From Saliphagus infecundisoli (GTDB taxonomy: Archaea; Halobacteriota; Halobacteria; Halobacteriales; Natrialbaceae): 62,638 nucleotides of DNA. The position numbers and the translations under genes were made by a program. The stretch spans positions 1-62,638 of the forward strand of contig NZ_JAIWHV010000023.1 of assembly GCF_020177375.1 (NCBI RefSeq). The letters are read 5' to 3'. Below, one piece after another: positions 5,841 through 61,712 of this stretch. The notes beneath the pieces were generated by a model. That model did no database searches and had not been told where the DNA came from. It saw nothing but the letters and a program-made list of their open reading frames with translations. Position 1 is the first letter of the stretch. Each line of letters starts with the position of its first letter.

Positions 5841-6047
5841 ATGGAACGCAAGACGATCTCCGTCACGGGAATGTCGTGCAACGGGTGCGAACAGAACGTC
5901 GAGAACGCCCTCCAGACCGCCGAGGGGGTCACCCGCGTCGACGCCGACCACGATGGTGACACCGTTTAACTCGTCGTACAGGATGACGTTGTGGACGACG
6001 ACATCGAAGTCGCCATCAAGGACGCGGGCTACGACGTAACGGCCTAA
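5841..6047 (+). pseudogene. copZ: copZ/merP-like metallochaperone with nonsense codon
   Basis: The frame starts MERKTISVTGMSCNGCEQNV, a complete heavy-metal-associated domain with the GMSCxxC metal site. At 5967 a TAA interrupts it; the same frame continues VVQDDVVDDDIEVAIKDAGY to a natural stop at 6045. A one-base change (GAA to TAA) explains this. The 42-residue product keeps the metal site but loses the last helix and strand of the fold. The 3-prime end converges with and overlaps the ATPase gene by 4 bases. Chaperones of this family hand Cu or Hg to P-type ATPases or MerA. Confidence 0.75.
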
Positions 6048-18936: not shown

Positions 18937-21399
18937 TCATTGAAGCAACGATCGCGAGGAGTTCGTGACGACCAGCAGGCTACTGGCCCCCATCGCGAGA
19001 GCGGCGAACAAGGGGTTGAGCAGTCCGGTTATCGCCAGCGGGATCGCGACCGCATTGTAACAGAATGCCCAGCCGATGTTGCCTTTGACCCGGCGATCAG
19101 TCGCGCGTGCGAGTTCGAAGACGGTATCGACCGACGAGAGATCGTCATCTACGAGTGCGACGTCGGCGGCGTCCGCGGCCATTGCGGTTCCGCCGCCCAG
19201 TGCGATCCCGAGGTCCGATGCCGCGAGCGCCGGCGCATCGTTGGTGCCGTCGCCGACCATCACCGTCCGTCCCGTCTGCTTGAGGCGCTCGACAGTCTCA
19301 GCCTTTCCCTCGGGAGGGACGCCGGCAAACACACGGGAGATCGACGGATCGTCCCGAAACTGGCCCGCAGCACGGGCGTCGTCACCGGTGAGCACGACGA
19401 CCTCGGTGTCGGTCGCTGCGATCGCCGACAGCGTCTCCGACCAGTCTTCCCGGAGGTCGTCGCCGACGACAATTACGCCCTCGGCAGTCCCGTTTCGACC
19501 AACGGCGACCGGCACGCGCCCTGCCTCGCGGCTCTCGGCGATCCGCCCCACGATCCCCTCGGGGACTGTCCACCCTCGCTCGCGAAACAGGTCCGGATGG
19601 CCGACGACGACCTCCTTGCCGTCTATGACCCCGGAGACACCGTTTCGATGGCTCTCGAAAGACTCGATGCCGTCGGTGCAGTCGGCCTCCGTCGTGTCGG
19701 TCTCCCTGGCCCCTTCCATCTCACCCACTGTCGATGCCGGCTCGACCGTTCCTCCGTCGGCGAGCCGGCGCTCGGCGGCGATCGCCCGGCCGACCGGATG
19801 GGCCGACCGCGACTCGAGCCTGGCGGCCAGAGAGAGCAACTCGTCGCCGAGGTCGGTTTCGACGACGGTCATCTCGCCGGTGGTCAGGGTGCCGGTCTTG
19901 TCAAAGACGACGGTGTCGGCCTCGCGGATGCGCTCGAAGACGGTGTCGTCGAAGACGACGATTGAGCGCTCCAGGGCGTCCCTGATCCCGGCGGCGACCG
20001 CGAGTGGCGTCGCCAGCCCGAGCGCACACGGACAAGAGACGATCAATACGGTGAGTCCGACGAGTAAGGCGTCGGTGACCCCGGCGCCCGTTGCGAGGTA
20101 GACTGCGGTGACGACGACCGAGAGCGCGAGGACGAGCGGGACGAAGATCGTCGCGAGCTTGTCGGCGAGCTTCTGGATCCCATGGCTTGAACTCTGGAGG
20201 TCCCAGACGAGTTCGGTCACCCGGTCCAAGCTGCTCGTTGCGTCCTCGCCGACCCGGACGGTGACCGCGCCGTCGGTCACCAGTGAGCCACCGACGACGG
20301 GGTCGCCGACACTTTTGCCAACAGGCAATGACTCGCCGGTGACGACTGCCTCGTCGATCGCGACCTCACCGGAGACGACCTCGCCGTCAATGGGCACGCG
20401 TTCGCCCGCACGAACCAGCACGCGGTCGCCCGGTTCGAGGTCGTCGACAGCGACCTCGACGTGGCTCCCGTCAGCCTCGATACGGCGGGCATCATCGATT
20501 CGGACGGCCGTGAGATCGGAGAGCCGTTCGGTCGCCTGCTCCTTGATCGTCGACTCGTAGTAGTTGCCCACCGAAACGATGACGATGATCGCGACGGTGA
20601 CGTCGTAGTAGACGTGGTTGCCACCGACGGCGATCGACAATGTGCTGTAGAGGTAGGCGCTGACGGCCGCGATCGCGACAAGCAGGTCCATGTTCGGCGA
20701 GCGGGTCTTCGCGGCGACGTAGGCTCCCTGGAGGATCGGCTTGCCAGTAACGCCCAAGATGATCGTCGTCATCGCGGCGATGGTGAGATAGAACGGTGTT
20801 GCGAGGTCACTCGCAAGTGTCTGTGTGAAGAACTCGGTCGTCCGCTCGTCGTAGAGCAGCCCCCCGAAGTAGGTAGGGTAGATGATGAGAACGTACTGCA
20901 ACATGACGGTCATTCCCATGAGCACGCCGACGATGACCCGCCCGATCATCCAGTTGTCGGCCTTGCGGCGGCTGACCGCGTCGTCGCGAGAATAGGCGCT
21001 GTAGCCGAGCCCGCTGATCGCCTCCTGAAGCTCAGTCTCAGAGACGAGGTCGGGATCGTGGTCGATCCGGACCGTATCCGTCACGTAGCTCGAATCGGCG
21101 TTGCTCACGCCCTCGGTTGCGACCGCGGCCGACTCGATGAACGCCTCGCAGGTCGCACAGTGCATCCCGTCGACCTCGAGATAGGTCGCCTCGTGGTCGT
21201 CGGGGACCTCCCGCTCGGTCCCCTCCGAGCGTTCGCGACGGACATCCTCGGCCCCGACGTCCTCGACATCCCCGAGGGCGGCGTGGACGTCCCGACAGCC
21301 CACACAACAGAAGCGGTTCCCTTCGTCGTCGGTGACGTCGCTCCCTGTAACGGGGAGTTCACACAGCGTACAGCCGGCGGCGTTTACGTGATCAGTCAT
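18937..21399 (-). CDS. CcoI/FixI-type copper P1B ATPase
   Basis: An 820-residue copper transporter. The N-terminus has a Cys-rich metal-binding domain (CTLCELP and RFCCVGC, 10-36) and an HMA domain with GMHCATC (CATC 81-84). Membrane helices carry SCPCALGLATP (CPC near 460), DKTGT and GDGTNDAPALA follow, and the protein ends in SSRSLLQ. The Cys-rich head plus HMA is typical of pumps that feed copper to cytochrome oxidase assembly. It overlaps the next gene by 4 bases (ATGA), and that gene encodes the usual DsbD/UreH-like partner. Confidence 0.92.
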   Translation of the reverse strand: MTDHVNAAGCTLCELPVTGSDVTDDEGNRFCCVGCRDVHAALGDVEDVGAEDVRRERSEGTEREVPDDHEATYLEVDGMHCATCEAFIESAAVATEGVSNADSSYVTDTVRIDHDPDLVSETELQEAISGLGYSAYSRDDAVSRRKADNWMIGRVIVGVLMGMTVMLQYVLIIYPTYFGGLLYDERTTEFFTQTLASDLATPFYLTIAAMTTIILGVTGKPILQGAYVAAKTRSPNMDLLVAIAAVSAYLYSTLSIAVGGNHVYYDVTVAIIVIVSVGNYYESTIKEQATERLSDLTAVRIDDARRIEADGSHVEVAVDDLEPGDRVLVRAGERVPIDGEVVSGEVAIDEAVVTGESLPVGKSVGDPVVGGSLVTDGAVTVRVGEDATSSLDRVTELVWDLQSSSHGIQKLADKLATIFVPLVLALSVVVTAVYLATGAGVTDALLVGLTVLIVSCPCALGLATPLAVAAGIRDALERSIVVFDDTVFERIREADTVVFDKTGTLTTGEMTVVETDLGDELLSLAARLESRSAHPVGRAIAAERRLADGGTVEPASTVGEMEGARETDTTEADCTDGIESFESHRNGVSGVIDGKEVVVGHPDLFRERGWTVPEGIVGRIAESREAGRVPVAVGRNGTAEGVIVVGDDLREDWSETLSAIAATDTEVVVLTGDDARAAGQFRDDPSISRVFAGVPPEGKAETVERLKQTGRTVMVGDGTNDAPALAASDLGIALGGGTAMAADAADVALVDDDLSSVDTVFELARATDRRVKGNIGWAFCYNAVAIPLAITGLLNPLFAALAMGASSLLVVTNSSRSLLQ

Positions 21400-33161: not shown

Positions 33162-35687
33162 TCATCTCTTGTCATCGGGGAGCAACCGACGAGAGCTATT
33201 CACACCAATTAAGCCAGCAGAGACAATCGCGGCAAATATCACAGTTACGGGATTTAGAAGGCCAATGATTGCAATCGGAATGGTGATCGCATTGTAGCAG
33301 AGTGCGAGCGCGTTGTTCTGCCGGACCCGTGAGCGCGCGGCGTGTGCTAATTCGAACGCAGTCTCGACGGATCCGAGGTCGTCCGTCGAGATCGCTATAT
33401 CGGCGGCATCAGCTGCAAGTGCCGTTCCGCTTCCTAGTGAGATTCCAAGATCTGCTACCGCGAGTGCCGGAGCGTCGTTGGTTCCGTCGCCGACCATAGC
33501 GACGTTGCGATCGTTTGCCAGCCGACGGATTGTCTCTGTCTTTCCTGCTGGGGGAACGCCTGCAAACACCTGATCGACGGCTGTATGTCGGTCGAAGAAC
33601 TCTGCCGCCTCTGCGTCGTCGCCGGTCAGGACGACCACGTCGACGCCGCGCTCGTCAAGTTGGTTGAGGGTCTCCTCCCAGTCCTCGCGTGGTTCGTCTC
33701 CGACAATCACGACGCCTTCGGCTTGGCCATCGCGGCCTACGATAACTGGCAGATGACCGAATCCGCGGGCCTGTTTGACACGCTGTTCGATCTCTTCACT
33801 CACTCTCCAATCCTCTGCAGCGAACAGGTCTAGTGAACCGACTGCAACTGATCGGCCGGTGACTGTCCCAGTGATCCCGGTCGCATGACTCGAAAACTCC
33901 GAAACGGGATCACTCTCTGGCTCCGCGATTGTATCGGGGGCCCCATCGGTTTGCATCGGATCGGTTTGGTCTTCGGAACGACCGAATGCGGCGACAATGG
34001 CTTCAGCTGCTGGGTGTGATGCTCGACGCTCCAGCATAGCGACGTCCTGGAGAAGGTCCGCCGGCGCATTAGCCTCGAGCACTTCCATTGAACCCGTCGT
34101 CAGCGTCCCAGTTTTGTCGAAAACCACTACGTCGATTTCACGGAGCCGTTCGAAGATCGTTTCGTCGAAGACGATGATGCCATGCTCCATCATCATACGA
34201 AGACAGCTGGCGACCGAGAGGGGTGTTGCAAGTCCCAGCGCCCATGGAGAGGTGACCAAGAATACGCCGAGCATTGCGAGGACCGTACTTGCAACTGAAC
34301 CGGTCGAGACGTAAATGCCGGCCCCAGTGCCGAGCGCCGCAAGAACGAGGACCGGAGCGACAAATGTGGCCATCCGATCTGCACGCCGCTGGATCCTGTG
34401 ATCCGTACTCTGGATGTTCCACACGGACTGCATGATTCGGTCGATACTACTTGTCCGCGCTTCATTGACTTCGACGAGCGCAGCATCGTTTGTGACAATC
34501 GATCCTCCGAGGACGTCCTCACCAGGGGATCGCCTGACTGGAACCGACTCGCCGGTTACGATCGATTCGTCAACGGTACAGGCCTGATCGACTAGCGTTC
34601 CGTCGACGGGAATCCGCTCTCCCGTGCGGACCAACACACGATCACCTGCCGTCACCTCCTCGACGGGGACGACGTGTGTCGTCCCGTCGTCGCTGTAGCG
34701 TCGTGCCTCGTCGACCTGAGAGACTGTGAGGTCCGTAAGACGTTCGAGCGCACGCTGCTTGATCGATGTTTCATAAAAGGCAGCACCGGTGACAGCTGCA
34801 GCGACGACCAACGTGAGGTCAAAGAATACGTCATTCTCACCGGCGATGATCGCGGCTGCACTGTACAGGTACGCACTGCAGACGGTAAACGCGACGAGAA
34901 GATCCGTATTCGGCTGCTTAGTCCGAAGGCTGGCGTATGCTCCACGCAGTACCGGCAGTCCCGTGAACAGCAACACAAGTCCTGTGAGACCGAGGTAGAG
35001 ACGTAGGAAGAGAGCACCTGAAGACCCCTGGAGTTGGAAGGAGTTCTCATAGAGTTCGAGGAACGTCGTATCAACCATATCCGCCAGGTGGGCAGGATAC
35101 ACGAGGACGGCGTAGGGGAGAAGAAGAAATGCCCCAAACAGGACGCCAGCCGCATAGCGAAAGCTGAGAAACTCATCTGACCGACGTTTACGCATTCCCT
35201 CCATCTCTCTAGAGCGGAGTGGGGCGTCCGCCTCGGCCTGGCGAGAACCCGCAGCGTCGCCTCGTAGGTATGCGTCGTAGCCGAGCGTGCTGAGCGCGTC
35301 TATGAGGTCCTGCTGGGTTACGTGGTTATCGTGCTCCACACGCACGGTCTCGGTGACATAGCTGGCCGTCGCGTCGGCTACTCCGTCTAGTGCCATTGCC
35401 CGGGACTCAAGGTACTCCTCGCAGGTCGCTGAGTGCATCCCGTCAACCCGGAAGAAGGTCTGGTCTCGGTGGTTCGACTCCCCGGGTGGCGAACTCTCGG
35501 TCGCTGCTGGAGACGTTTCGGAACAATCCGAGCCCTTGGCCTGGATCGGTCCGTCAAGTGTCTCGTCAATCTCGCGGCAGCCCTGCGAGCAGTACCACTC
35601 GTCGGACGGAGCGTCCGCAATTCCTGACGCAAAGTCGATTGTCCGACCACATAGCTCGCAGGTGGCATTGGGATGTGTGTCGTCCAT
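33162..35687 (-). CDS. FixI-like P1B ATPase with lost copper ligands
   Basis: An 841-residue paralogue of the gene at 18937. The layout is the same: a Cys-rich head (CELCGR, YCSQGC), an HMA domain, eight helices, TGES, DKTGT, GDGTNDAPALA and an SSRRLLP end. Two metal sites differ. The HMA motif GMHCATC reads GMHSATC, and the membrane CPC reads SPW (480-482, TSPWALGLATP). Catalytic ATPase motifs are intact, so it is not simply decayed. It may move another substrate or act as a regulator. The start at 35687 is an ATG; a GTG at 35702 is possible. Confidence 0.9.
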   Translation of the reverse strand: MDDTHPNATCELCGRTIDFASGIADAPSDEWYCSQGCREIDETLDGPIQAKGSDCSETSPAATESSPPGESNHRDQTFFRVDGMHSATCEEYLESRAMALDGVADATASYVTETVRVEHDNHVTQQDLIDALSTLGYDAYLRGDAAGSRQAEADAPLRSREMEGMRKRRSDEFLSFRYAAGVLFGAFLLLPYAVLVYPAHLADMVDTTFLELYENSFQLQGSSGALFLRLYLGLTGLVLLFTGLPVLRGAYASLRTKQPNTDLLVAFTVCSAYLYSAAAIIAGENDVFFDLTLVVAAAVTGAAFYETSIKQRALERLTDLTVSQVDEARRYSDDGTTHVVPVEEVTAGDRVLVRTGERIPVDGTLVDQACTVDESIVTGESVPVRRSPGEDVLGGSIVTNDAALVEVNEARTSSIDRIMQSVWNIQSTDHRIQRRADRMATFVAPVLVLAALGTGAGIYVSTGSVASTVLAMLGVFLVTSPWALGLATPLSVASCLRMMMEHGIIVFDETIFERLREIDVVVFDKTGTLTTGSMEVLEANAPADLLQDVAMLERRASHPAAEAIVAAFGRSEDQTDPMQTDGAPDTIAEPESDPVSEFSSHATGITGTVTGRSVAVGSLDLFAAEDWRVSEEIEQRVKQARGFGHLPVIVGRDGQAEGVVIVGDEPREDWEETLNQLDERGVDVVVLTGDDAEAAEFFDRHTAVDQVFAGVPPAGKTETIRRLANDRNVAMVGDGTNDAPALAVADLGISLGSGTALAADAADIAISTDDLGSVETAFELAHAARSRVRQNNALALCYNAITIPIAIIGLLNPVTVIFAAIVSAGLIGVNSSRRLLPDDKR

Positions 35688-35771
35688 CGGTGAGGTTCGC
35701 ACGTGTGTCGTTCTCAGAGATGGGTACGGAAACGTGTTTCCGACGCGGGTCAGCCGGGCCTATCCGAGACA

Positions 35772-45301: not shown

Positions 45302-47986
45302 TTATCCCTCTAGAGCGTTGGTTTCGGTGTCTGTCTCCGGCGTAATTCGAGAGAGTCGCATCGCATTCCCAGTGACGGCTGTCGTCATTCCGGCGTCGCC
45401 AGCGAGGACGGCGAGCCAGATGGGGACGTATCCGAACGGGACTGCGACTGCCAGACCGGCTTTGACAGCGAGACTCGACCAGATGTTCTGCCGGATGACG
45501 CCGTTCGCATCGTTTGCGAGTTCGTAGAGATACGGGAGCTTCGCAAGGTCATCGCCCATTAAGGCGATGTCGGCGGTTTCCAATGCGGTGTCGGTTCCGG
45601 CAGCTCCCATCGCCACGCCGACTGTGGCGGTGGCGAGTGCCGGTGCGTCATTGATGCCGTCACCGGTCATCGCAACGCCGTCGTACTCGTCGACGAGGTC
45701 CTCTATCGCGGTCACCTTCTCCTCGGGGAGCAATTCGGCCTGGTACTCGTCGACGCCGACCTGTTCGGCGATCGCGCGGGCAGTCCGCTCGTTGTCGCCC
45801 GTCAGCATCACCGTTCGGGAGACGCCGAGTTGATTGAGCCGTGTTACTGTTCGCTTCGCTTCCGGACGGATCTCGTCGGCGACCGCGATGACGCCTTCGA
45901 GCTCGTCTTCGGTTCCAACGAGGACAACGGTCTTCCCTTCTGCTTGGAGTTCGGGAACCGTCTCTTCGAGGAGGTCGAGACAGTTGTTCCGGTCGCAAAT
46001 CTGGCGGGCTGTCTGTGTCACAACACCCCTGTCCGTCGTTGCGTGAACGTGCGAGAGGTCGAAATCCAACTCCTCGAACAGCCCTGGCTTGCCAGCGAAA
46101 TGGGGAGTTCCGTCAAGGTCGGCACGCACACCCTTCCCAGTGATGCTCTCGAAATCGTCGATCTCGCGTTCGGCGACCCCCACGCTGCCGGCTTCAGCGA
46201 CGATTGCCTCGCCGATGGGATGTTCACTCCGCTGTTCGAGCCCATGTGCACACCGGAGGACGTCTTCCTCTGACTTCCCGTTCAATGGAACGACGTCAGT
46301 GACGGTGAGTTCACCTTTCGTGAGCGTTCCCGTTTTGTCGAACGCGACGACGTCGACGGCGCCCATCGCTTCGAGGTAGTTGCCGCCCTTGATTAGGACC
46401 CCATTCTTCGCGGCACTCGTGATCCCCGACACCACGGAAACGGGTGTTGAGATGACGAATGCACACGGACAGGCTAGTACCAGTAACGTCAGCCCGTAGA
46501 CGACGGCCGTAGGCCAGGCCGTCCCGAGGACGTATGGGCTTGCCACCATCGTCAGGATAGCGAAGGCGACGACGACTGGTGTGTAGTATGTCGAGAAGCG
46601 TTCGACGAACTGCTCACGCTCGGTCTTGTTCGACTGGGCGTCTTCAACCATCTCCACGATACGCGAGAGCGTGTTATCGCCAGCTTCGGAGGTGACCTCC
46701 GCCTCGAGATATCCCTCTTCGTTGATCGTGCCGGCGTACACCTCGTCACCTGTCGTCTTGTCGACGGGCACGCTTTCGCCCGTGATGGGCGCCTGATTGA
46801 CGGCGCTTTCACCGTCGACGACGGCCCCGTCCATCGGGATTTTCTCCCCCGGCTTTACGACGACAATGTCTCCGACAGCAACCTCATTGACGGGAACCGT
46901 CTTCGTGCTATCGTCCCGCTTGACGGTCGCCTCATCCGGTGAAAGGTCCATTAGCTCTCGGAGCGAGTTCCGGGCGCGATCCATCGAGTACCGCTCCAGC
47001 AGTTCGGCGACGCTGAACAGGAACGCGAGGGTGGCGGCCTCGAAGTAGAGCGCCTCACCGAAGGCGAGGCTCGCAACGAGCGCCCCGAGGATAGCCACCG
47101 ACATCAAGAAGTCGATATCGAGGTTCAGATTCCGTGCCGAGTAGTAGCCGTTGCGAAGAATCTCTTGACCACCGGAGGCGACGGCAACGAGGAACAGTGC
47201 ATCGGCAACAAACAGATCCGTGCCGAGAAGACTTGCAAGCTGTATATTCTGCCCAGTCAGGAAGAACTCGAAGAGCAAGCCGAGGGCGACGAATCCACCG
47301 CTAATCCATGTCTTGAGCGCTCGCGGACTCGTCCAGATACTCTCGCGCTCCTCAGTCGCTTCCTGACGTACTGATTCGTCGCTCGAAGTGTCTGTAACCT
47401 CGTACCCGCCACTCTCGATAGCACCGATGATATCGGCTTCTCCAGCCCTCGAAGAATCGTACGTGACGGCGACGGTTCCGGTCGTTGGCTGGGTTTCGTA
47501 TGTTGTGACACCACCGACCCTGTCGAGAGCATTTTCGATTTTGCCCGCGCACGAAGGGCAATCCATTTCTGGGACCGTGAATTCCGAGGTTACCTCGCCA
47601 GTGTCCTCCACGGTGTACCCGACCTTTTCAACCCGATCAGCTATCGCGGTGGCGCTTGTTTGCTCGCCGTCATAAGAGACTGTCAACGTTCCCGTCGTTA
47701 CTTGTGGGTCGACACTACGGATTCCGCCCAGTTTTTCGACACTGTTTTCGACCTTTCCTGCACAGGATGGGCAGTCCATTTCCGGGACCGAAAACTGTGC
47801 AACGTCCCCTTGATCTAATGGTGGGGAAGCGCCATCGACACTCCGTCTTGCGTGCTGTGTGTGTTCATGATCAACATGGTCGTGGTCATGCGTGTGCCTT
47901 TGCTCGTGAGATCCCTCTTCGTGCTCGTGGGCATGATCCGGTGATTCACCACTTCTGTCGTGGGAATCGTCGTCAGGTGAGGTCAT
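45302..47986 (-). CDS. zntA: Zn/Cd/Pb P1B ATPase (ZntA/CadA type)
   Basis: An 894-residue exporter with a His/Asp-rich N-terminus (1-48), two HMA domains (MDCPSCAGKVE near 70 and MDCPSCAGKIE near 141), eight helices with LACPCAFVISTP (CPC 506-508), DKTGT at 550-554, SEHP, and GDGINDAPALATATVGVAMG. The CPCAFVIS context and acidic first-HMA residue (MDCPSC) are typical of Zn/Cd/Pb pumps. Neighbours are a CDF exporter and a ZIP transporter, a coherent zinc-class metal block. Confidence 0.93.
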   Translation of the reverse strand: MTSPDDDSHDRSGESPDHAHEHEEGSHEQRHTHDHDHVDHEHTQHARRSVDGASPPLDQGDVAQFSVPEMDCPSCAGKVENSVEKLGGIRSVDPQVTTGTLTVSYDGEQTSATAIADRVEKVGYTVEDTGEVTSEFTVPEMDCPSCAGKIENALDRVGGVTTYETQPTTGTVAVTYDSSRAGEADIIGAIESGGYEVTDTSSDESVRQEATEERESIWTSPRALKTWISGGFVALGLLFEFFLTGQNIQLASLLGTDLFVADALFLVAVASGGQEILRNGYYSARNLNLDIDFLMSVAILGALVASLAFGEALYFEAATLAFLFSVAELLERYSMDRARNSLRELMDLSPDEATVKRDDSTKTVPVNEVAVGDIVVVKPGEKIPMDGAVVDGESAVNQAPITGESVPVDKTTGDEVYAGTINEEGYLEAEVTSEAGDNTLSRIVEMVEDAQSNKTEREQFVERFSTYYTPVVVAFAILTMVASPYVLGTAWPTAVVYGLTLLVLACPCAFVISTPVSVVSGITSAAKNGVLIKGGNYLEAMGAVDVVAFDKTGTLTKGELTVTDVVPLNGKSEEDVLRCAHGLEQRSEHPIGEAIVAEAGSVGVAEREIDDFESITGKGVRADLDGTPHFAGKPGLFEELDFDLSHVHATTDRGVVTQTARQICDRNNCLDLLEETVPELQAEGKTVVLVGTEDELEGVIAVADEIRPEAKRTVTRLNQLGVSRTVMLTGDNERTARAIAEQVGVDEYQAELLPEEKVTAIEDLVDEYDGVAMTGDGINDAPALATATVGVAMGAAGTDTALETADIALMGDDLAKLPYLYELANDANGVIRQNIWSSLAVKAGLAVAVPFGYVPIWLAVLAGDAGMTTAVTGNAMRLSRITPETDTETNALEG

Positions 47987-48095: not shown

Positions 48096-48518
48096 TCATT
48101 CCACTCGAACTGTCCCGACCATCCCGGAGACCTCATGTGGAATACAAAAGTATCCGTATGTTCCAGGGTGATCGAACGTGTGGTCGTAGTTCTCGCCCGG
48201 AGCGATGAGTCCCTCCTTGACCCGGCTCCTTGCAGCACGCTCTGACTCGAAGCCACCACTTGCGAAGTACGCGGCCTCGTCTGGAATCTCGTCTTCATAC
48301 GCTGTGACCGTGTGCTCAATGTTGCTTTCGTTCGTCCACGTTACTGTCTCCCCAGGTTCGATCGTCACGGTCTGTGGCTCGAACGTGTGGCTGTCGGGCA
48401 TCGTGGCGGTCTGGCTTGACGATGACTGTCCATTCAAACACCCGGCGGTGATGAGAGTCGCCAGGGTAACAGCGCTAAGTCGCAACACCGCCCGTCGATC
48501 GTAAAACTCGAGTGACAT
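48096..48518 (-). CDS. Halocyanin-like cupredoxin lipoprotein
   Basis: A 140-residue protein with signal and lipobox (DRRAVLRLSAVTLATLITAG, C at about 27) and a plastocyanin fold with His in NIEHTVTAYEDE and the cluster YFCIPHEVSGM. It lies 24 bases downstream of the ZIP gene, so it is part of the MCO-ZIP-cupredoxin run, where it could exchange electrons with the multicopper oxidase. Confidence 0.85.
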   Translation of the reverse strand: MSLEFYDRRAVLRLSAVTLATLITAGCLNGQSSSSQTATMPDSHTFEPQTVTIEPGETVTWTNESNIEHTVTAYEDEIPDEAAYFASGGFESERAARSRVKEGLIAPGENYDHTFDHPGTYGYFCIPHEVSGMVGTVRVE

Positions 48519-48542: not shown

Positions 48543-49793
48543 TTAGAGCGCCACGAAGAGGTCGGTCACGTACATAACGCTGAGACCGAGCAGGAATGCA
48601 AGCAGATTCGTAGCGCTGGCCACGCGACCGCCTGCATCCCGAACCATTCGTGCAATCTCCCAGTTGACCTGCAGGATTGCACCAACTCCAATTGCGAGGA
48701 AGAAGGCGCCGATCGTCGGCGAATATGCGAGACTACCGATCCAGCCACCGAGGATGACTGGTGCGCCGGCGATGACGCCGAGCGCGACGAAGTGCTTGAG
48801 CGACGGGCGTTTTCCGCGGGCGACCGGCGCAACAACAGCTGGGCCTTCCGTCACGTTGTGGAGCATAAATCCGATCACGAGGAATGCGCCGAGCGACACA
48901 CGCCCAAGTGCAAACGAACTCCCAATCGCCAGCCCCTCCGCAAGGTTGTGGAGGCCGATCCCTACCGCGACCAGATAGGCGATCCAGAGACCACTACTCG
49001 CCCGACTATCACCAGCGTCGACACGCCCCTCACGCCACGCGCTGATCGCCTGGACGAGTAATAGCGCGCCGAAGATCCCGAAAACGACCAAGAGATTGCC
49101 CTCGAACGCGCCTGGAACCCGCTCGGCGAGTTCGAACGCCTCGAACCCGGCGTCGAACGCCAAGAAGCCTAGTACACCGGCCGCAAATAAGAGAACGGCG
49201 TGCAGCCAGCGATCACTCATCGTCTTGATGTAGGGGAACCAGAGCATCCCTAGTGCGACCGGGATCACCCCGACGAACAGCCCGATGACGGCAAGCGTTC
49301 CGAGCAGACTGAGGCTAAATCCGGGTGACTGGCTCGGAGCGACGATCGTATTATGGAACGTCGCTCCGTCAGAGAGTACGAGAGCGACTTCAAGATCCCA
49401 CCCCGGATTCCAGTGATACGGGATTACGATCTGTGCGCTTTCCATCGGGGCGAGCGTTTGGTCACCACCGGCCCCTTCGACCTGGAAATCCCAGTATGCT
49501 TCGTCGACGAGAATCTGTGATATCGTCACGGATTCGGGCCCGTTATTCGTCACGTGCAGTACGACTGTTTCATCGCTCGGAAGCGTCGTGTGCGTGACCG
49601 TGACGTCGGGAAGTGGTTCACCGCTCTGAACACCGGCGAGCGGTGACGTGAACGCGAACACACCCAAGACGAGTACGAGCAATACGATCGGGAGTAACGC
49701 GCTGACCCACCGCGGAAGTCCGAGCGGTTGTGTGACCTCGTTCTCAGCTGGTACACCACTGTCAGTCGTCGAGTTTTGTGTCTTGTCCGCCAT
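48543..49793 (-). CDS. ZIP-family metal transporter with exported N-domain
   Basis: A 416-residue protein. One N-terminal helix (about 30-50), then a beta-rich extracytoplasmic domain (about 60-150: VTVTHTTLPSDETVVLHVTN), then ZIP helices with IGLHNLAEGLAIGSSFALG and FMLHNVTEGPAVVAPVA, the paired metal-binding helices. ZIP proteins bring Zn, Mn or Fe into the cytoplasm. The extra N-domain is unusual for ZIP. The gene starts 1 base after the multicopper oxidase stop, so the two are co-transcribed. Confidence 0.88.
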   Translation of the reverse strand: MADKTQNSTTDSGVPAENEVTQPLGLPRWVSALLPIVLLVLVLGVFAFTSPLAGVQSGEPLPDVTVTHTTLPSDETVVLHVTNNGPESVTISQILVDEAYWDFQVEGAGGDQTLAPMESAQIVIPYHWNPGWDLEVALVLSDGATFHNTIVAPSQSPGFSLSLLGTLAVIGLFVGVIPVALGMLWFPYIKTMSDRWLHAVLLFAAGVLGFLAFDAGFEAFELAERVPGAFEGNLLVVFGIFGALLLVQAISAWREGRVDAGDSRASSGLWIAYLVAVGIGLHNLAEGLAIGSSFALGRVSLGAFLVIGFMLHNVTEGPAVVAPVARGKRPSLKHFVALGVIAGAPVILGGWIGSLAYSPTIGAFFLAIGVGAILQVNWEIARMVRDAGGRVASATNLLAFLLGLSVMYVTDLFVAL

Positions 49794-49794
49794 G

Positions 49795-51051
49795 TTAGAC
49801 CACCTCGAAGAAGCTCATCCAGCCGAGTTCGGCGAACTCCGACTGGTGAGCATGAAACATGTACAGTCCCGGATCGTGGTCAGAGTAGTCGATCTCCAGA
49901 ATACCGCGCTGTGCCTGGCACTGCATGATCGTGTCGACGTTCTTGAGCGTCGGCGTCAATGTCGTCCCGTGGTCGTAGTAGTCGAAGAACTGCGAGTGAG
50001 TATGGAACGAATTGATGAGATCGAACTCCGTCGAATTGGAGAGGTACACGCGCTGGCGTTCGTTCTTATCGATCTGGATGGGGCGTTTCGTCTCGCCCGC
50101 CGTCCAGTTGCCGTTGCCGTCAGTGCCACCAACCCCGTATCCGAACGCCCGTGTGTTCACCGCGTAGACCTCATTGCCACCGTCGAAGTTGGTGTCGAAC
50201 GAGTTCATCACCATTACCATCTCGTTGACGGCGTCGTTCTCAGCGTACTCGTGATTCCGGCTCCTCGCCTCTTCGACGAGCTGGTCCTGGAAGTTGTCGG
50301 TAATCGGCCCAGGGTAATTGACGTAGTCGCGTGGGTTCTCACTGACGCGTTCGGGGTCCGGATCAACGATGATTGTGCCGTAGAGTCCACGATGGATGTG
50401 TTCTTTCAGTGGGAGCGAATGGCAGTGATAAAAGTGCGTGCCGGCGGGTTGGGCGATCCACTCGTAAGTGAAGGATTCACCCGTATTGAGGACGCCGGGG
50501 CCGTTCTGGGGAATTCCATCCATTCTCGGGTTGAGGTTCTTCAGGTGCGGATGAATCGTGTGAGCATGCCGCCCTAGGTTCGTGAACTTGACACGGATCA
50601 GGTCGCCCTCAACAGCGCGGATCGTCGGGCCCGGCACCTGGCCGTTGAATGCCCACGCCTGGAACTCGACGCCCGGTGCGATGGTGATCGTCGTGTCGAC
50701 GGCAGTGAACTCGAACTCCCGGACGGTTCGGCCGTCCTCCTCGTAGACCTGCTGAGGAACGTTATCCTGCCCGCTGTCTCCGATATTGAACGCCGTGAGG
50801 AACTCGTGCGGGTCGAAATCCAAATCCCGGTATTCGCCTACAGCACCGAAATTGCCGTGTTCATCCTCGTCCTCGTGATCGGACGAGGCACTTGTCCGAG
50901 AGCTCCCGAGTCCGACTGCTGCACTCCCGGCGACACCGAAACCGCCGAGTACCGTACGGCGACTGACGTTCGCTTCACCGGTGAGCGATTCGACCAATCG
51001 CTGTTCAAGTCGTTCTGTGACATTCGCTGCACTATCGTAATCTATCGATGG
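49795..51051 (-). CDS. Two-domain multicopper oxidase (NirK-like)
   Basis: A 418-residue exported enzyme with a Tat signal (SRRTVLGGFGVAGSAAVGLG). Copper motifs are HTIHPHLKN, HFYHCHSLPLKEHIHRGLYG, FHTHSQFFDYY and MFHAHQSEFAELGWM, covering type-1 and type-2/3 sites in a two-domain layout. It is related to copper nitrite reductases but more likely oxidises a metal, since it is co-transcribed with a ZIP transporter and controlled by a DtxR/MntR-type site. The substrate could be Mn(II) or Fe(II), by analogy with oxidase-coupled metal uptake. Confidence 0.88.
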   Translation of the reverse strand, partial: PSIDYDSAANVTERLEQRLVESLTGEANVSRRTVLGGFGVAGSAAVGLGSSRTSASSDHEDEDEHGNFGAVGEYRDLDFDPHEFLTAFNIGDSGQDNVPQQVYEEDGRTVREFEFTAVDTTITIAPGVEFQAWAFNGQVPGPTIRAVEGDLIRVKFTNLGRHAHTIHPHLKNLNPRMDGIPQNGPGVLNTGESFTYEWIAQPAGTHFYHCHSLPLKEHIHRGLYGTIIVDPDPERVSENPRDYVNYPGPITDNFQDQLVEEARSRNHEYAENDAVNEMVMVMNSFDTNFDGGNEVYAVNTRAFGYGVGGTDGNGNWTAGETKRPIQIDKNERQRVYLSNSTEFDLINSFHTHSQFFDYYDHGTTLTPTLKNVDTIMQCQAQRGILEIDYSDHDPGLYMFHAHQSEFAELGWMSFFEVV

Positions 51052-51120
51052 CATGATCTCCTCCGCTGGTCGAGCCTTCGAATACCCATATATCCTAGTT
51101 GACCCCATCCAATATATAAA

Positions 51121-51134
51121 TTAGCCCTATCTAA
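51121..51134. promoter_or_regulatory. TTAG-N6-CTAA site at the MCO-ZIP promoter
   Basis: TTAGCCCTATCTAA is palindromic in its outer arms and lies just upstream of the TATA-like TTTATATA of the minus-strand oxidase gene. The same arms and spacing occur at 51870-51883. It resembles the outer half of DtxR/IdeR boxes (TTAGG...CTAA). Confidence 0.55.
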
Positions 51135-51182
51135 ACTTTGAGTGGATCTAAACAAATAACGGGATGCGGACTTTCGAGCTTC

Positions 51183-51860
51183 TCAGTTAGCACCCTTAGT
51201 GAGAGATCGGGTAGATACAGAACGTGCAACTTCATCGGGTAGAGCAACTGGTTCGTCTCCACTATCAGGATCGAGTGTGACCATACCAAATGATGTGGTC
51301 TCGACAACGTCCACTACAGTTCCGGGGTGAATCCCGTGTTCGGACAGGTACCGGAGTAGAGCCGGATCTTTGTCCGGCACCCGTTCGATTCGAACGCTGT
51401 CGCCTACTTGATGATCAGCAAGCGTGTCCTCATATTTTGCTCCCGAAACGTCTAGATCCGCCGTGGGAATTGGGTCGCCATGGGGATCAACCGCTGGATC
51501 TTCCAGCTGCTCTGCAATCCGGTCGGCGAACTGACTGCTGATATGGTGTTCAAGGCGATCTGCTTCGTCGTGTACCTCTGCCCAATCATACTCAAGGTGG
51601 TCCGTTAGATATCGTTCTAAGAGCCGATGGTGGCGAATGATCTCGAGAGCAATAGGAACTCCAGTGTCCGTGAGCTTGACCCCCTGATAGGGTTCGTAAT
51701 GGACGAAATTACGCTCTGACAATTTTTTCATCATACTGGTAACCGTCGATTGTTCTACGTCCATATATTCAGCGAGAGCCGAGGTCCGTACCCGGCCATC
51801 CGTTTCGTTCTGGAGATAATAGATCGCTTTGAGATAGTCCTCCACGATCGCGCTCAACAT
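51183..51860 (-). CDS. DtxR/MntR-family metal-dependent regulator
   Basis: A 225-residue protein with the DtxR winged helix (MLSAIVEDYLKAIYYLQNET; MDVEQSTVTSMMKKLSERNF), a dimerisation domain with metal-ligand positions (HHRLLERYLTDHLEYDWAEV, HDEADRLEHHISS) and a C-terminal SH3-like FeoA domain (about 150-225). It represses metal-uptake genes when Mn or Fe is abundant. It should bind the TTAG-N6-CTAA sites found upstream of itself and of the oxidase-ZIP operon. Confidence 0.92.
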   Translation of the reverse strand: MLSAIVEDYLKAIYYLQNETDGRVRTSALAEYMDVEQSTVTSMMKKLSERNFVHYEPYQGVKLTDTGVPIALEIIRHHRLLERYLTDHLEYDWAEVHDEADRLEHHISSQFADRIAEQLEDPAVDPHGDPIPTADLDVSGAKYEDTLADHQVGDSVRIERVPDKDPALLRYLSEHGIHPGTVVDVVETTSFGMVTLDPDSGDEPVALPDEVARSVSTRSLTKGAN

Positions 51861-51869
51861 AGACGATAA

Positions 51870-51883
51870 TTAGGCCCGGCTAA
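51870..51883. promoter_or_regulatory. TTAG-N6-CTAA site at the regulator's own start
   Basis: TTAGGCCCGGCTAA lies between a TATA-like TTATAAAT (minus strand) and the ATG at 51860, about 10 nt away. Same palindrome class as 51121-51134, suggesting autoregulation. Confidence 0.5.
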
Positions 51884-52201
51884 ATTTATAATTTGCTATA
51901 TAACATATTCTCAATGTCACCAACTGTGAGTGCGCTCCTGATGTTCCGTGAGATCGTTCTGGTGTGTCTCATCTACAACACCAAGCGTGCCGTTCAGTAG
52001 TGAAATCCAGTGCTCTATGGCGATTCAATAGAGCCGTCGTAATGGAAGTACTTGCGTATCTCGCTGGCTACTGAGTATGGTAATCGACCGGCGGTGGACA
52101 GACCGGTCTCGTTTTCTCCCACACTTGTGGCTGTGGGGATTCGCGTTGGACTATGCGAATGCGCCACAAGAATAAAGAAGACATTGACCGTCTCTTCACC
52201 C

Positions 52202-54422: not shown

Positions 54423-54553
54423 ATGGCGACAGGTCGTCGGATAGAAGTGGCGAGACATTTATCGGAAGATCAGCTTGATGAGGCGATTAACGAAGCCCAG
54501 AAGGCGGACGAGACGCGTCTCGTCCGGCGGCTCTGTTTCGTCAAGAACCTCCT
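54423..54553 (+). mobile_element. IS630-type transposase 5-prime fragment
   Basis: MATGRRIEVARHLSEDQLDE, then KADETRLVRRLCFVKNLL, is the N-terminal HTH region of haloarchaeal IS630 transposases (ARHLSxxELDxAIxEAQKADETRLVRRLCFVKNLYxGDTR). It breaks off where the decayed ATPase on the other strand begins, so an IS insertion and deletion cut that gene. From 54140 to 54422 no gene is seen. Confidence 0.6.
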
Positions 54554-56319
54554 CTTGGAGTTCACTGACCCTCGTGTCTTTATCCTCAGGCAAGACTTCA
54601 GCAAAGACGGTATCAATGCCAAGTTCGTCGGCGGCTGCATTGGCAATATCCTCCGAGTCACCGGTTAGCATCGCCACATCCATTCCCAACTCGTGAAGCG
54701 CGTCCACGACCTGGTAGCTTTCCTCGCGGATGATGTCAGTAAGGGCGAAGGCAGCAACCGGTTCGCCCTCTTGAATGAGGTACTACTGTTTGTGTGTTCT
54801 CACCGGCTTCTTGGGCGAATTCAACAAGGATCAATGGAACGTCGCTGTCGAGTTGAGAGAGGAGATTAGGACCGCCGACATAGATCTCTTACCATCGATC
54901 GTTGCTCGAACACCACGGCCCTTGAGTGCCTCGAAGTTCGTGGCATTCTGTGCTGAGACCTCACGCTCGGTTGCCGCATTGCGGATGGCGTTCGGAATCG
55001 CCTTCGGCGCCAGCAGCGAGGGAGAGTGCCTCCTCTGCGGTAAGGGCATCCACGGTCGTTATATCCACGACACCCTGCTCACCTTCAGTGAGCGTCCTGT
55101 TTTGTCAAAAATCACTGTATCGAGTTCACGGGCTTGCTCCATGGCAACCCGATCACGGATGAGCATCCCGTTCCTAGCCGCCAACGACGTATTGATGGCG
55201 ACCACCAGCGGAATGGCGAGTCCCAATGCATGCGGACAGGAGATTACTAATACAGTGACAGCTCGTTCGATGACGGAGGCGCCAAATGTTATCGCGAACG
55301 TCCACACGATAACAGTGATAGCAGCGGACGCCACTGCGATGTAGAAGAGCTAACCTGCCGCACGATCCGCGAGAATCTGGGTTTGAAACTTACTCTGCTG
55401 GACTTCCTCAACGAGACGCATAATCCCGGCGAGGACCGTTTCCTCACCCGTGGCAGTAATCCGGACTCGAAGACTTCCGTCACCGTTAATGGTCCCTCCG
55501 ATTACTTCGTCACCAGGATCTTTGAACATCGGGCACGATTCGCCGGTGATCATTGACGTCGGACTTGCCTTCCTCGACGACGCCATCGGCAGGGACGCTC
55601 GCACCTGGACGAACAAGGACGAGGTCCCCTTCCGCTAAATCGGAAACGGGCACCTCTTCAGTCTCACCGTTGGTGATTCGTTCGGCTGTGTCGGGCATGA
55701 GCTGGGCTAGCTCATCGAGCGCGCTCGAGGCACGGCGAACGCTGCGCATCTCGATCCAATGCCCTAACAGCATAATATCTATCAGGGTCGCCAATTCCCA
55801 GAAAAACGCCGTTCTGCCGGGGAAAAGTACGGTCGAAAGACTGTAAATAAACGCAACGGTAATCGCCATCGAAATCAGCGTCATCATCCCAGGCGCTCGG
55901 TCCCGCAGTTCAGGGACAGCCATCCGGAGGAACGAAATGCCGCCGTATGCGAAGACGATTACCGCAAAAACAGGGTTGATTCACTCACTGCCGGGGAACG
56001 CTGGGACCGTGAACCCGAGCCGCTCTTGGAGCGTCTCACTGTAGAGTAATACTGGAAGTGAGAGCAAAAGATAGATGAAAAATCGCTGCCGGAACATCTC
56101 CTTATATCCTGCATACATTCCCATCCCTTCGTGATCGCCATGGCCATTCCCGTGGCCGTGGTCCGCATGGTCATCGTGCCGGTCGTGTTTTTCCTCTACC
56201 TCCTGACGCGTTTGATGTGTTTCAGCCTCCTCTTCAAGTAGTGACTGCTCCTGTGGCTCCGGCTTCTGATCGTCTCGGCCGACGCGCTCATTATCCGTAG
56301 TATGCTCCTGGTCTGATCG
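54554..56319 (-). pseudogene. copB: Decayed CopB-type P1B ATPase
   Basis: Pieces in several frames restore one ATPase: a His-rich N-terminus (HDRHDDHADHGHGNGHGDHE, about 56110-56190), LLSLPVLLYSETLQERLGF, a stop in GSE-stop-INPVF, [56 protein letters not shown] (CPH motif), IFDKTG, and MLTGDSEDIANAAADELGID. At least one in-frame stop and several frameshifts are seen, and the hinge GDGxNDAP part is missing at the IS630 junction. CPH pumps of the CopB class export Cu or Ag. Clearly non-functional. Confidence 0.85.
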
Positions 56320-59807: not shown

Positions 59808-61712
59808 ATGAGCGAGACCGACGACACAGAGGAAAGCCATACGCAGTGGAGTGGGTCATGGTATAGCTTCCCTCCAATCCGAAATGCGCTCATCGCAGCC
59901 GGGATTGTGCTTCTCACATTCACATTCAGTCGCATTTACTCCCTGCCATTGGTGGCAGAGAACGGGCTGTACGCGATAGCGATGCTGATCGGTGGATTCC
60001 ACTGGGCGCAAGAGGGAATCGAGGAACTGGTCGGTGAGTTCGAGATCGATATCGAAATTCTGATGTTAGCCGCAACCGCCGGTGCAGCCTTTCTTGGCCT
60101 CTGGGAAGAGGCAGCGTTCCTCGTCATTCTCTATGGCGGTGCGGAAGGCGTCGAGGAATACACGTTCGCACGAACGCGAGCGTCGATCCGAAGCCTACTT
60201 GATCTCGCGCCCGAAGAGGCGCGGCTCATCATGGACGGAAGCTCACAGATGGTCCCCGCACGGGAGCTCAACGTGGGTGATGTCTTCCGCGTCAAACCTG
60301 GCGAATCGATCCCAACCGATGGCCGGGTTATCGATGGGCGTTCGACTGTCGATCAGGCAGCGGTCACCGGTGAATCCACTGCCGTCGATAAGCAAGAGGA
60401 TGACCAGGTGTTTGCCGGTACTGTCAATCAGGAGGGTGTCCTCGATATTGAAGCGACCACGACGTTCGAGGATAACACGCTCTCGCAGATGATCCATCTC
60501 GTCGAGGAGGCCCAGGAAGAAAAGGGGAAATCACAACTCTTCATCGAGAAGTTCGGCGGCGTCTATTCACCCGTCGTTCTCCTGGCCGCGGTCGGACTTA
60601 TGCTTGCGCCGTTCGCCATTGCGTTCCCGGACTACTGGACGAGGCGGGCAATTGTTCTGCTCGTCGCGGCTGCACCCTGCGCTCTGGTCATGTCGACGCC
60701 GATTGCGATTGCATCAGGTATCGGGCGAGCTGGCCGAGAGGGAGTCCTCGTCAAGGGCGGGATTCACCTCGAAAACTTGGGGAAAGTTGAGGCGATCGCC
60801 TTCGACAAGACCGGCACCCTTACTCGGGGCACGCCGGCGGTCACGGACGTTGTCGCATTCGAGGGAACCGAAGACGACGTACTCGGGCGAGCAGCGAGCG
60901 TCGAACAGTATTCCGAACACCATCTCGGGGAAGCGATCATGGAGGCCGCCGCTGAACGCGGACTCGAACAGACCGAGATTTCCGAGTTCAGCTCGATCAC
61001 CGGCTACGGGGCGCAAGCACAACTCATGGAGGAGACCGTGTACGTCGGGAAACCAGGGCTATTCGAGCGATTTGAACTCGACGTCGATGGGATTGCTGCA
61101 GTCGAGCAACTTCAAAACGAAGGGAAGACGGTCGTGCTCGTTGGGACCCAATCCCGAATTATGGGCGTCATCGCCCTCCGTGATGAGCCGCGTCCCGAGG
61201 CGAAGGACGTCATCCGTGAGCTTCACGACATGGGCGTAGAGGTCCTCATGCTCACGGGGGACAACGAGCAAACAGCGCAGGCAATTGCGTCAGAGCTCGG
61301 GATCGACGATGTACGGGCGGATCTGAAACCCGAAGAGAAGGTCGAAGCGGTCAAAGAACTCACAGCGACGTACGAGGCAGTCGGAATGGTCGGTGACGGC
61401 ATCAACGACGCCCCGGCACTGGCCCAGGCAACGGTTGGGATCGCTATGGGAACTGCGGGAACGGATGCCGCGATCGAAGCGGCTGATATCGCATTGATGG
61501 CGGATGATATCACGAAGGTCACGTACGCACTTCGACTCGGTAAGCGGGCACAGCGGATTAGCCGCGAGAACATCGTGTTTTCGCTGCTCGTGTTAGCCGC
61601 GCTCATTCCCGCTGCGTTGCTCGGTGTGATCGGAATCGCCATTGCCGTCGTCGCTCACGAGGGTTCTGAACTGCTGGCGATTGGAAACGGACTTCGGGTG
61701 AGACGAGGCTGA
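59808..61712 (+). CDS. P1B ATPase with APC motif (Zn/Cd/Co class)
   Basis: A 634-residue exporter without N-terminal metal domains. It has TGES near 187-190, the membrane motif AAPCALVMSTP (APC 289-291), DKTGT near 334, SEHH in place of SEHP, GDGINDAPALAQATVGIAMG, and the C-terminal helix VAHEGSELLAIGNGLRVRR. The HEGS end and the lack of HMA domains are features of P1B-4-like pumps (Co, Zn, Cd); the APC replaces the usual SPC or CPC. Probably co-transcribed with the CoA-ligase-like gene 13 bases downstream. Confidence 0.9.
   Translation: MSETDDTEESHTQWSGSWYSFPPIRNALIAAGIVLLTFTFSRIYSLPLVAENGLYAIAMLIGGFHWAQEGIEELVGEFEIDIEILMLAATAGAAFLGLWEEAAFLVILYGGAEGVEEYTFARTRASIRSLLDLAPEEARLIMDGSSQMVPARELNVGDVFRVKPGESIPTDGRVIDGRSTVDQAAVTGESTAVDKQEDDQVFAGTVNQEGVLDIEATTTFEDNTLSQMIHLVEEAQEEKGKSQLFIEKFGGVYSPVVLLAAVGLMLAPFAIAFPDYWTRRAIVLLVAAAPCALVMSTPIAIASGIGRAGREGVLVKGGIHLENLGKVEAIAFDKTGTLTRGTPAVTDVVAFEGTEDDVLGRAASVEQYSEHHLGEAIMEAAAERGLEQTEISEFSSITGYGAQAQLMEETVYVGKPGLFERFELDVDGIAAVEQLQNEGKTVVLVGTQSRIMGVIALRDEPRPEAKDVIRELHDMGVEVLMLTGDNEQTAQAIASELGIDDVRADLKPEEKVEAVKELTATYEAVGMVGDGINDAPALAQATVGIAMGTAGTDAAIEAADIALMADDITKVTYALRLGKRAQRISRENIVFSLLVLAALIPAALLGVIGIAIAVVAHEGSELLAIGNGLRVRRG

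Follow-up and report, generated by a model that had tools for sequence, protein, structure and literature searches.

A predicted manganese-type repressor circuit linking a DtxR/MntR-type regulator to a multicopper oxidase-ZIP operon in Saliphagus infecundisoli

The locus described here raises the question of whether a DtxR-type regulator controls a neighbouring multicopper oxidase-ZIP operon, and in response to which metal. It has long been asked why microbes use copper oxidases to oxidise Mn and other metals; Mn oxidation in Pseudomonas putida GB-1 was reported to accompany higher intracellular Mn (PMC3798386). A sequence-only reading of the present DNA had proposed that TTAG-N6-CTAA sites at both promoters join these genes in a metal-controlled circuit, oxidation outside the cell being coupled to uptake by ZIP. 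The window, i.e. the whole stretch of 62,638 nt that was analysed, is contig C15 of the 4.53-Mb S. infecundisoli genome, which is in 76 contigs. A pattern scan placed the 14-mers where they had been read, at 51121 and 51870, these being the sole matches in the window, and the TATA-like elements reported beside them are likewise present. Shuffling of the window yielded a mean of 0.15 matches, with two or more sites in 1 of 100 shuffles. The features under discussion, all on the minus strand, are as follows.

45302-47986, minus strand: P1B-type metal ATPase, with its own TATA-like element and without a full box
48096-48518, minus strand: small cupredoxin (plastocyanin/azurin type), over the PF00127 cut-off
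48543-49793, minus strand: ZIP-family transporter, carrying an additional membrane helix and a beta-sandwich domain at its N-terminus
49795-51054, minus strand: two-domain multicopper oxidase, 419 aa, with a twin-arginine-like N-terminus (judged by eye)
51113-51120, minus strand: oxidase TATA box TTTATATA, abutting the operator, which lies on its upstream side
51121-51134, minus strand: oxidase-operon operator, forward letters TTAGCCCTATCTAA, minus strand TTAGATAGGGCTAA
51137-51151, minus strand: imperfect second operator, TTAG-N7-CAAA, on the upstream side of the main oxidase box
51183-51860, minus strand: DtxR/MntR (SirR)-type regulator, 225 aa, with HTH, metal-binding/dimerisation and FeoA/SH3 domains
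51870-51883, minus strand: regulator-promoter operator, forward TTAGGCCCGGCTAA, minus strand TTAGCCGGGCCTAA, between TATA box and ATG
51885-51892, minus strand: regulator TATA box ATTATAAA, 1 nt before the operator and about 28 nt from the ATG

The most probable start of the oxidase is 51054 (MPSID...), in preference to the ATG of the longer ORF at 51108, since an in-frame stop lies at most 54 nt upstream of the projected start in 21 of 38 loci and GGAGGAGATCATG at 51054 resembles a ribosome site. When the 437-aa ORF was scanned, both PF07732 (Cu-oxidase_3) and PF07731 (Cu-oxidase_2) scored over their cut-offs, and the best PDB match was 7rab (E=3e-107); none of the papers searched mentions 7rab or 7rac together with multicopper oxidase. 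Across 20 aligned sequences H168, H170, H210, H212, H351, H353, H401 and H403 are invariant, as are H165, C211 and H219. We take the eight His residues to be the trinuclear site and the latter three the type 1 site and, with both ligand sets complete, the oxidase should reduce oxygen. Assignment as the copper nitrite reductase NirK was rejected at 78.5 bits against a TIGR02376 cut-off of 296.3. The structural model of the oxidase has a mean pLDDT of 53.6.

The ZIP protein scores 25.3 bits against PF02535, below the gathering score of 35.1, which its Shinella relative exceeds at 36.6. It nevertheless resembles BbZIP both in sequence (E=8e-05) and in fold (E=1.2e-06), and carries the motifs HNLAEG and HNVTEG, whose H, N, E and G residues are invariant in 22 sequences. 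Its model (mean pLDDT 79.3) shows a BbZIP-like core preceded by an N-terminal helix and a beta-sandwich. The N-terminal region is also present in the aligned bacterial ZIPs and might contact the oxidase. The P1B-ATPase probably lies outside the oxidase-ZIP unit: its inclusion was rejected, as it is an inconstant neighbour with its own TATA-like element. More broadly, cupredoxin-like ORFs and five long ORFs resembling P-type metal ATPases by eye (6044-8317, 18937-21399, 33162-35702, 45302-47986 and 59808-61712, the fourth alone having been profile-scanned) give the contig, between 6044 and 61712, the look of a metal-homeostasis island. Three short minus-strand ORFs at 54459-55923 match separate P-type ATPase parts, the remains of a broken metal pump.

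Conservation of the two operators was assessed among relatives. Of 292 genomes in the class Halobacteria, 40 were found to encode the oxidase, S. infecundisoli included, and the loci of 37 of the 39 oxidase-bearing relatives (all but G236 and G253) were examined with the window (n=38). The named close relatives of the operon are haloarchaeal. Oxidase and ZIP adjoin in 36 of the 37 relatives, the exception being a partial oxidase match, and the cupredoxin is the next gene in most, not all. Of the 38 oxidase promoters, 26 carry TTAG-N6-CTAA within 200 nt upstream, as do 17 of the 18 regulator promoters; the Markov expectations are 0.1 and 0.03 loci, respectively. When 256x13 = 3,328 dyads were ranked at each promoter set, it came first in both; the runners-up at the oxidase (20, 11, 9, 8, 7 and 7) consist of fragments of these arms, singly or combined, and that at the regulator scores 7. 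A TTAG-N6-CAAA form, with CAAA for CTAA, is found in six further oxidase promoters. Among the six with neither form, four have an upstream regulator gene whose promoter is boxed; L066 and L075 have neither an oxidase box of either form nor a boxed upstream regulator gene.

This degree of conservation bears on whether the palindromes arose by chance, or are promoter DNA that simply travelled with a gene island of recent spread. Oxidases of distant genera share about 90% identity, several of their genes being on plasmids, so common descent accounts for some of the conserved spacing. On the other hand, the arms and the TATA element are nearly fixed across 15 close promoters while three central bases vary; when loci are grouped into 16 clusters at 85% oxidase identity, ten have the box and three the CAAA variant (13 of 16 together), leaving three with neither; and a strict form of the box recurs at unrelated genes class-wide. 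Chance or copying is thus an explanation to which we give hardly any credence.

The positions of the boxes suit repression at both promoters, judging from their geometry. The oxidase operator overlies the position of the BRE, directly 5' of the TATA box, and zero box-TATA spacing recurs in 15 relatives with the oxidase box at -79 or -80, by a simple consensus score. The block matching the second, imperfect operator is conserved in 15 aligned close-clade promoters, the window included. Divergent orthologues keep the box although the spacing differs; by consensus score the better TATA-like match precedes the box in some of them (L067, L069 and L073), the layout being unclear in others. At the regulator, the box lies at -22 to -27 from the start and the TATA element is the same in eight listed close relatives. 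The regulator mRNA is expected to be leaderless, and with the box ending about 8-13 nt 5' of the ATG, after the TATA-like element, a dimer bound there would be placed close to the 5' end of the transcript.

The opposite sign of control, with the regulator switching the operon on at high Mn and the oxidase protecting the cell by precipitating the excess, appears improbable. Archaeal activators can sit just upstream of BRE/TATA, where the oxidase box lies, and Bacillus subtilis MntR is reportedly bifunctional. However, the boxes occupy blocking positions, abutting TATA and expected to cover BRE in the close clade and following a TATA-like match in L067, L069 and L073; ZIP family members are mostly importers; and one of the bacterial dyads described below also occurs at a SitA-like importer. 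Repression remains the favoured sign.

A genome scan for the 14-bp pattern, suggested by the sequence-only reading, gave a divided answer. Genome-wide there is no enrichment: TTAG-N6-CTAA has 13 occurrences and its reversed control 34. Allowing one mismatch in a relaxed Mn-type pattern brings no enrichment either (22/28 vs 47/52 across the whole genome). Near metal genes the expected association was found: nine of the 13 places immediately precede a gene for metal transport, the oxidase or a metal regulator, so the proposal stands on that point. By eye from ORF starts, no reversed-pattern control precedes a recognisable metal gene among the 15 of 34 places inspected, and nine of these lie inside ORFs. 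Besides the two sites in the window, the nine comprise one at a ZnuA-type ABC operon (C6), which has 13 of 14 bases in common with the oxidase-operon operator, one at a PF11449 10TM exporter (C22:274097), and five at FecCD/Peripla_BP_2 siderophore/B12-type ABC genes (G000:C74:113094, 113129 and 114475; G000:C76:37493 and 39579; L011, L012), one FecCD/Peripla_BP_2-type protein at these places scoring just under its cut-off. Of the other four places, C22:24067 precedes a methyltransferase-like gene and C22:189209 lies in a region devoid of coding ORFs; the remaining two are C4:70366 and C11:699506.

Because all five FecCD-type places have the form TTAGG-N4-CCTAA, the 14-bp frame is not confined to a single class: it mixes at least two, a Mn-type box and the TTAGG-N4-CCTAA form at FecCD/siderophore-type ABC genes. 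The latter form is also present at C11:699506 and C22:24067, and two such boxes, 35 nt apart, precede one of the FecCD/Peripla_BP_2 genes. The pattern is thus probably not one regulon, and the notion that it alone defines one was rejected on the count of 13 against 34, the unenriched relaxed form and the mixed box classes. At C11:699506 (L007:4507-4520), TTAGGCCCACCTAA stands downstream of DpsA and about 110 nt before a functionally uncharacterised PF24042/PF24038 gene; a role as the DpsA promoter was rejected, the site being 229 nt beyond the DpsA stop codon. At C22:274097 (L010:4098-4111), TTAGATGGGTCTAA lies about 36 nt before the PF11449 10TM putative metal exporter, whose NCBIfam name is 'arsenic efflux'; the box itself suggests a manganese link.

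A more selective search employed the strict palindrome TTAGACNNGTCTAA, derived from the relatives' sites. It occurs at 68 places in 52 of 116 haloarchaeal genomes, compared with nine for the reversed control. Assigned by tblastn with a few marker proteins, its targets are 25 regulator genes, 21 MntA/ZnuA-type ABC genes, five GDT1/UPF0016 genes, three oxidases and three stand-alone ZIPs, so that 57 of the 68 sites fit Mn-type homeostasis by this assignment. Eleven fit no Mn-type gene, five of these being one locus in one genus (L087, L089, L090, L091 and L117), where the neighbours of the conserved box have no recognised metal role. The stand-alone ZIPs (L137, L139 and L149) are 44-45% identical to the core of the window ZIP, and each adjoins an MntR-like gene; the equivalent neighbourhood in S. 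infecundisoli (L083) has an MntR-like gene and no ZIP match. Neither the strict TTAGACNNGTCTAA nor a GDT1 match is found in the S. infecundisoli genome.

The regulator scores above the Pfam cut-offs for PF01325, PF02742 and PF04023. Its best NCBIfam model is MntR NF047407, at 205 bits against a higher cut-off of 350, and its PDB matches are 5zr4, 8pvt, ScaR, SloR and MntR. In alignments it has Asp at the positions of DtxR Met10 and Cys102, together with His and Glu-His, residues whose numbering and Mn-type metal-ligand roles we assume. The S. infecundisoli genome encodes three DtxR proteins (window, C11 and C76): the first two are 53% identical and have MntR-like ligand residues in common, and the third is without several of these. 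The promoter of the C11 paralogue has no full box, its best candidate showing three mismatches. One half of the regulator site TTAGCCGGGCCTAA is like the FecCD-type form and this, together with the unboxed C11 promoter, makes cross-talk with iron control possible.

An iron circuit, in which the regulator would respond to Fe(II), the oxidase would act as a ferroxidase and iron would enter through the ZIP or a partner in the manner of Fet3-Ftr1, must therefore be weighed. The regulator belongs to the DtxR family, the Haloferax DtxR protein TroR is said to be the primary regulator of iron homeostasis, and the TTAGG-N4-CCTAA version of the frame precedes FecCD/siderophore-type ABC genes in S. infecundisoli, one half of the window regulator box being of this TTAGG/CCTAA type. 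These points are outweighed by the 57 assigned strict sites, which include MntA-type ABC, GDT1 and ZIP genes and among which no siderophore gene was recognised (11 of 68 being unassigned), by Asp at the DtxR Met/Cys positions, presumably ligands, and by the bacterial partner regulators, both of which, when scanned, pass an MntR cut-off. We regard the iron reading as improbable. In Halobacterium, a review (PMC3600143) describes SirR as a Mn(II)-dependent autorepressor in whose deletion Mn(II) uptake genes go up, and a second review (PMC7380456) notes Mn-dependent control of GDT1 genes in four halobacteria from earlier work. Given the MntR-like ligands and these two reports, the sensed metal is most likely Mn, iron and copper being the main rivals.

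The oxidase-ZIP pair is also found in Alphaproteobacteria, where the best 80 of 509 loci, ranked against the Shinella sequence, were searched for MntR and Fur relatives as neighbours. ZIP follows the oxidase in all 80 of these best loci, overlapping starts being allowed, and a divergent MntR gene adjoins the pair in 30, the other 50 having no MntR match alongside. On Sulfitobacter and Shinella plasmids the pair is divergent from a gene annotated MntR, and both partner regulators score above the cut-off of an NCBIfam MntR model. The gene after the Microvirga pair belongs to the Fur family. The dyad search covered up to 500 nt upstream of the oxidase match. Within the best 80 of 509, TAGC-N4-GCTA lies upstream in 26 of the 30 MntR-linked loci and 14 of the 50 others, TGCAA-N11-TTGCA in 23 of the 50 loci without an MntR match, and one of the two dyads in 63 of 80, leaving 17 with neither. 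An extended TGCAA dyad, allowing one mismatch, occurs once at the oxidase in each of four searched genomes; the single further place, in one of the four, precedes a SitA-like Mn/Fe ABC gene, whose product matches PF01297 and has a Mn/Fe-binding protein as its best NCBIfam model, below the cut-off. The strict bacterial box ATAGCNNTTGCTAT has two extra matches in the four genomes, apparently in reading frames and not near recognised Mn genes. In Rhizobium leguminosarum, sitABCD and mntH are controlled by the Mn-responsive Mur (PMC5575495). We infer that the TGCAA dyad is a Mur box; a literature search returned no usable match for the Mur-box sequence.

The bacterial loci also bear on a copper circuit, in which the pair would acquire Cu or detoxify Cu(I), the role of the Mn-type regulator being no more than to report mis-metallation. 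The oxidase is a copper enzyme with cupredoxin and P1B-ATPase neighbours; copper genes and a metal-sensing repressor flank the Shinella pair and copper genes lie near that of Microvirga; and Nitrososphaera MCO1 and its adjacent permease are moderately up under Cu limitation (PMC7785015). Yet the regulator and boxes beside the pair are Mn-type in haloarchaea and at many bacterial loci (MntR and Fur relatives alone having been sought), and it is ZIP that is the near-constant neighbour, cupredoxin and ATPase being inconstant. A copper circuit accordingly seems unlikely.

Taken together, comparative genomics strongly supports the metal-controlled link from regulator to oxidase-ZIP operon that the sequence-only reading proposed: boxes are conserved at both promoters, the class-wide box set is mostly at Mn-type genes, and the pair stands beside MntR genes or Mn-type boxes at many bacterial loci. 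Most probably, a SirR/MntR-type, Mn(II)-dependent repressor represses both itself and the oxidase-ZIP-cupredoxin operon through the two sites. The binder of both sites would be the window's own SirR/MntR-type regulator or its chromosomal paralogue, as a metal-loaded dimer, most likely with Mn(II), recognising TTAG-N6-CTAA (class consensus TTAGACNNGTCTAA). Bound between TATA and start, the dimer would block the regulator promoter, giving autorepression; over BRE/TATA it would block the oxidase promoter. When Mn is scarce the oxidase-ZIP-cupredoxin operon would be made, the ZIP being a candidate importer and the putatively exported two-domain copper oxidase serving uptake. We infer the metal identity, the sign of regulation, the direction of transport, the oxidase substrate and the coupling to uptake; extracellular oxidation coupled to ZIP uptake would fit the strict gene pairing.

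The occurrence of the pair beside MntR-type switches in distant bacteria indicates that it probably helps cells obtain manganese. A broader proposal, which we put forward tentatively and with more doubt than conviction, is that oxidase and ZIP form a Mn-starvation-induced, O2-dependent Mn acquisition module, a Mn counterpart of Fet3-Ftr1, common to haloarchaea and Alphaproteobacteria and independently wired to archaeal SirR/MntR, bacterial MntR and a Mur-type Fur protein. The recurrence of an oxidase-importer pair beside Mn-type repressors or boxes in two domains makes the old question of metal oxidation directly testable. None of the papers covered by the literature search places the oxidase-ZIP pair in a Mn regulon or beside MntR genes or Mn-type dyads in bacteria, and priority for the pair under Mn-type control cannot be claimed.

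A SirR/MntR-type autorepressor with a palindromic box is of a known kind. Leyn and Rodionov (2015) reportedly derived archaeal DtxR regulons from comparative genomics, with TroA, ZIP and NRAMP targets and, as here, palindromic boxes; it is the work cited in a review for the Mn-dependent GDT1 genes of four halobacteria. Halobacterium SirR, compared by description (PMC3600143), is likewise haloarchaeal, of the DtxR family by name and autoregulated, with Mn-uptake ABC genes in its regulon; the regulator described here differs in being a second copy, often adjoining an oxidase-ZIP-cupredoxin target operon. Bacterial MntR (PRK11050 type) and rhizobial Mur (PMC5575495) are also Mn-responsive repressors, and an MntR gene or one of the two dyads stands at the oxidase-ZIP pair in many bacterial loci; the DNA boxes differ, and Mur is of the Fur family. 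Two cupredoxin domains and a complete copper-ligand set are found equally in the two-domain multicopper oxidases 7rab and 3gdc, and MCO1 of ammonia-oxidising archaea, likened by description, adjoins a zinc/iron permease (PMC7785015); unlike these, the present oxidase lies under a Mn-type operator. The ZIP core is that of BbZIP (PDB 5tsa, 8ght) by sequence and fold, with HN..EG motifs, whereas the window ZIP has the additional N-terminal helix and beta-sandwich domain. In yeast, Fet3-Ftr1 consists of a surface copper oxidase and a metal permease under starvation control. In the present system the genes of a copper oxidase and a metal permease are similarly paired, with ZIP in place of Ftr1 and Mn suspected instead of Fe.
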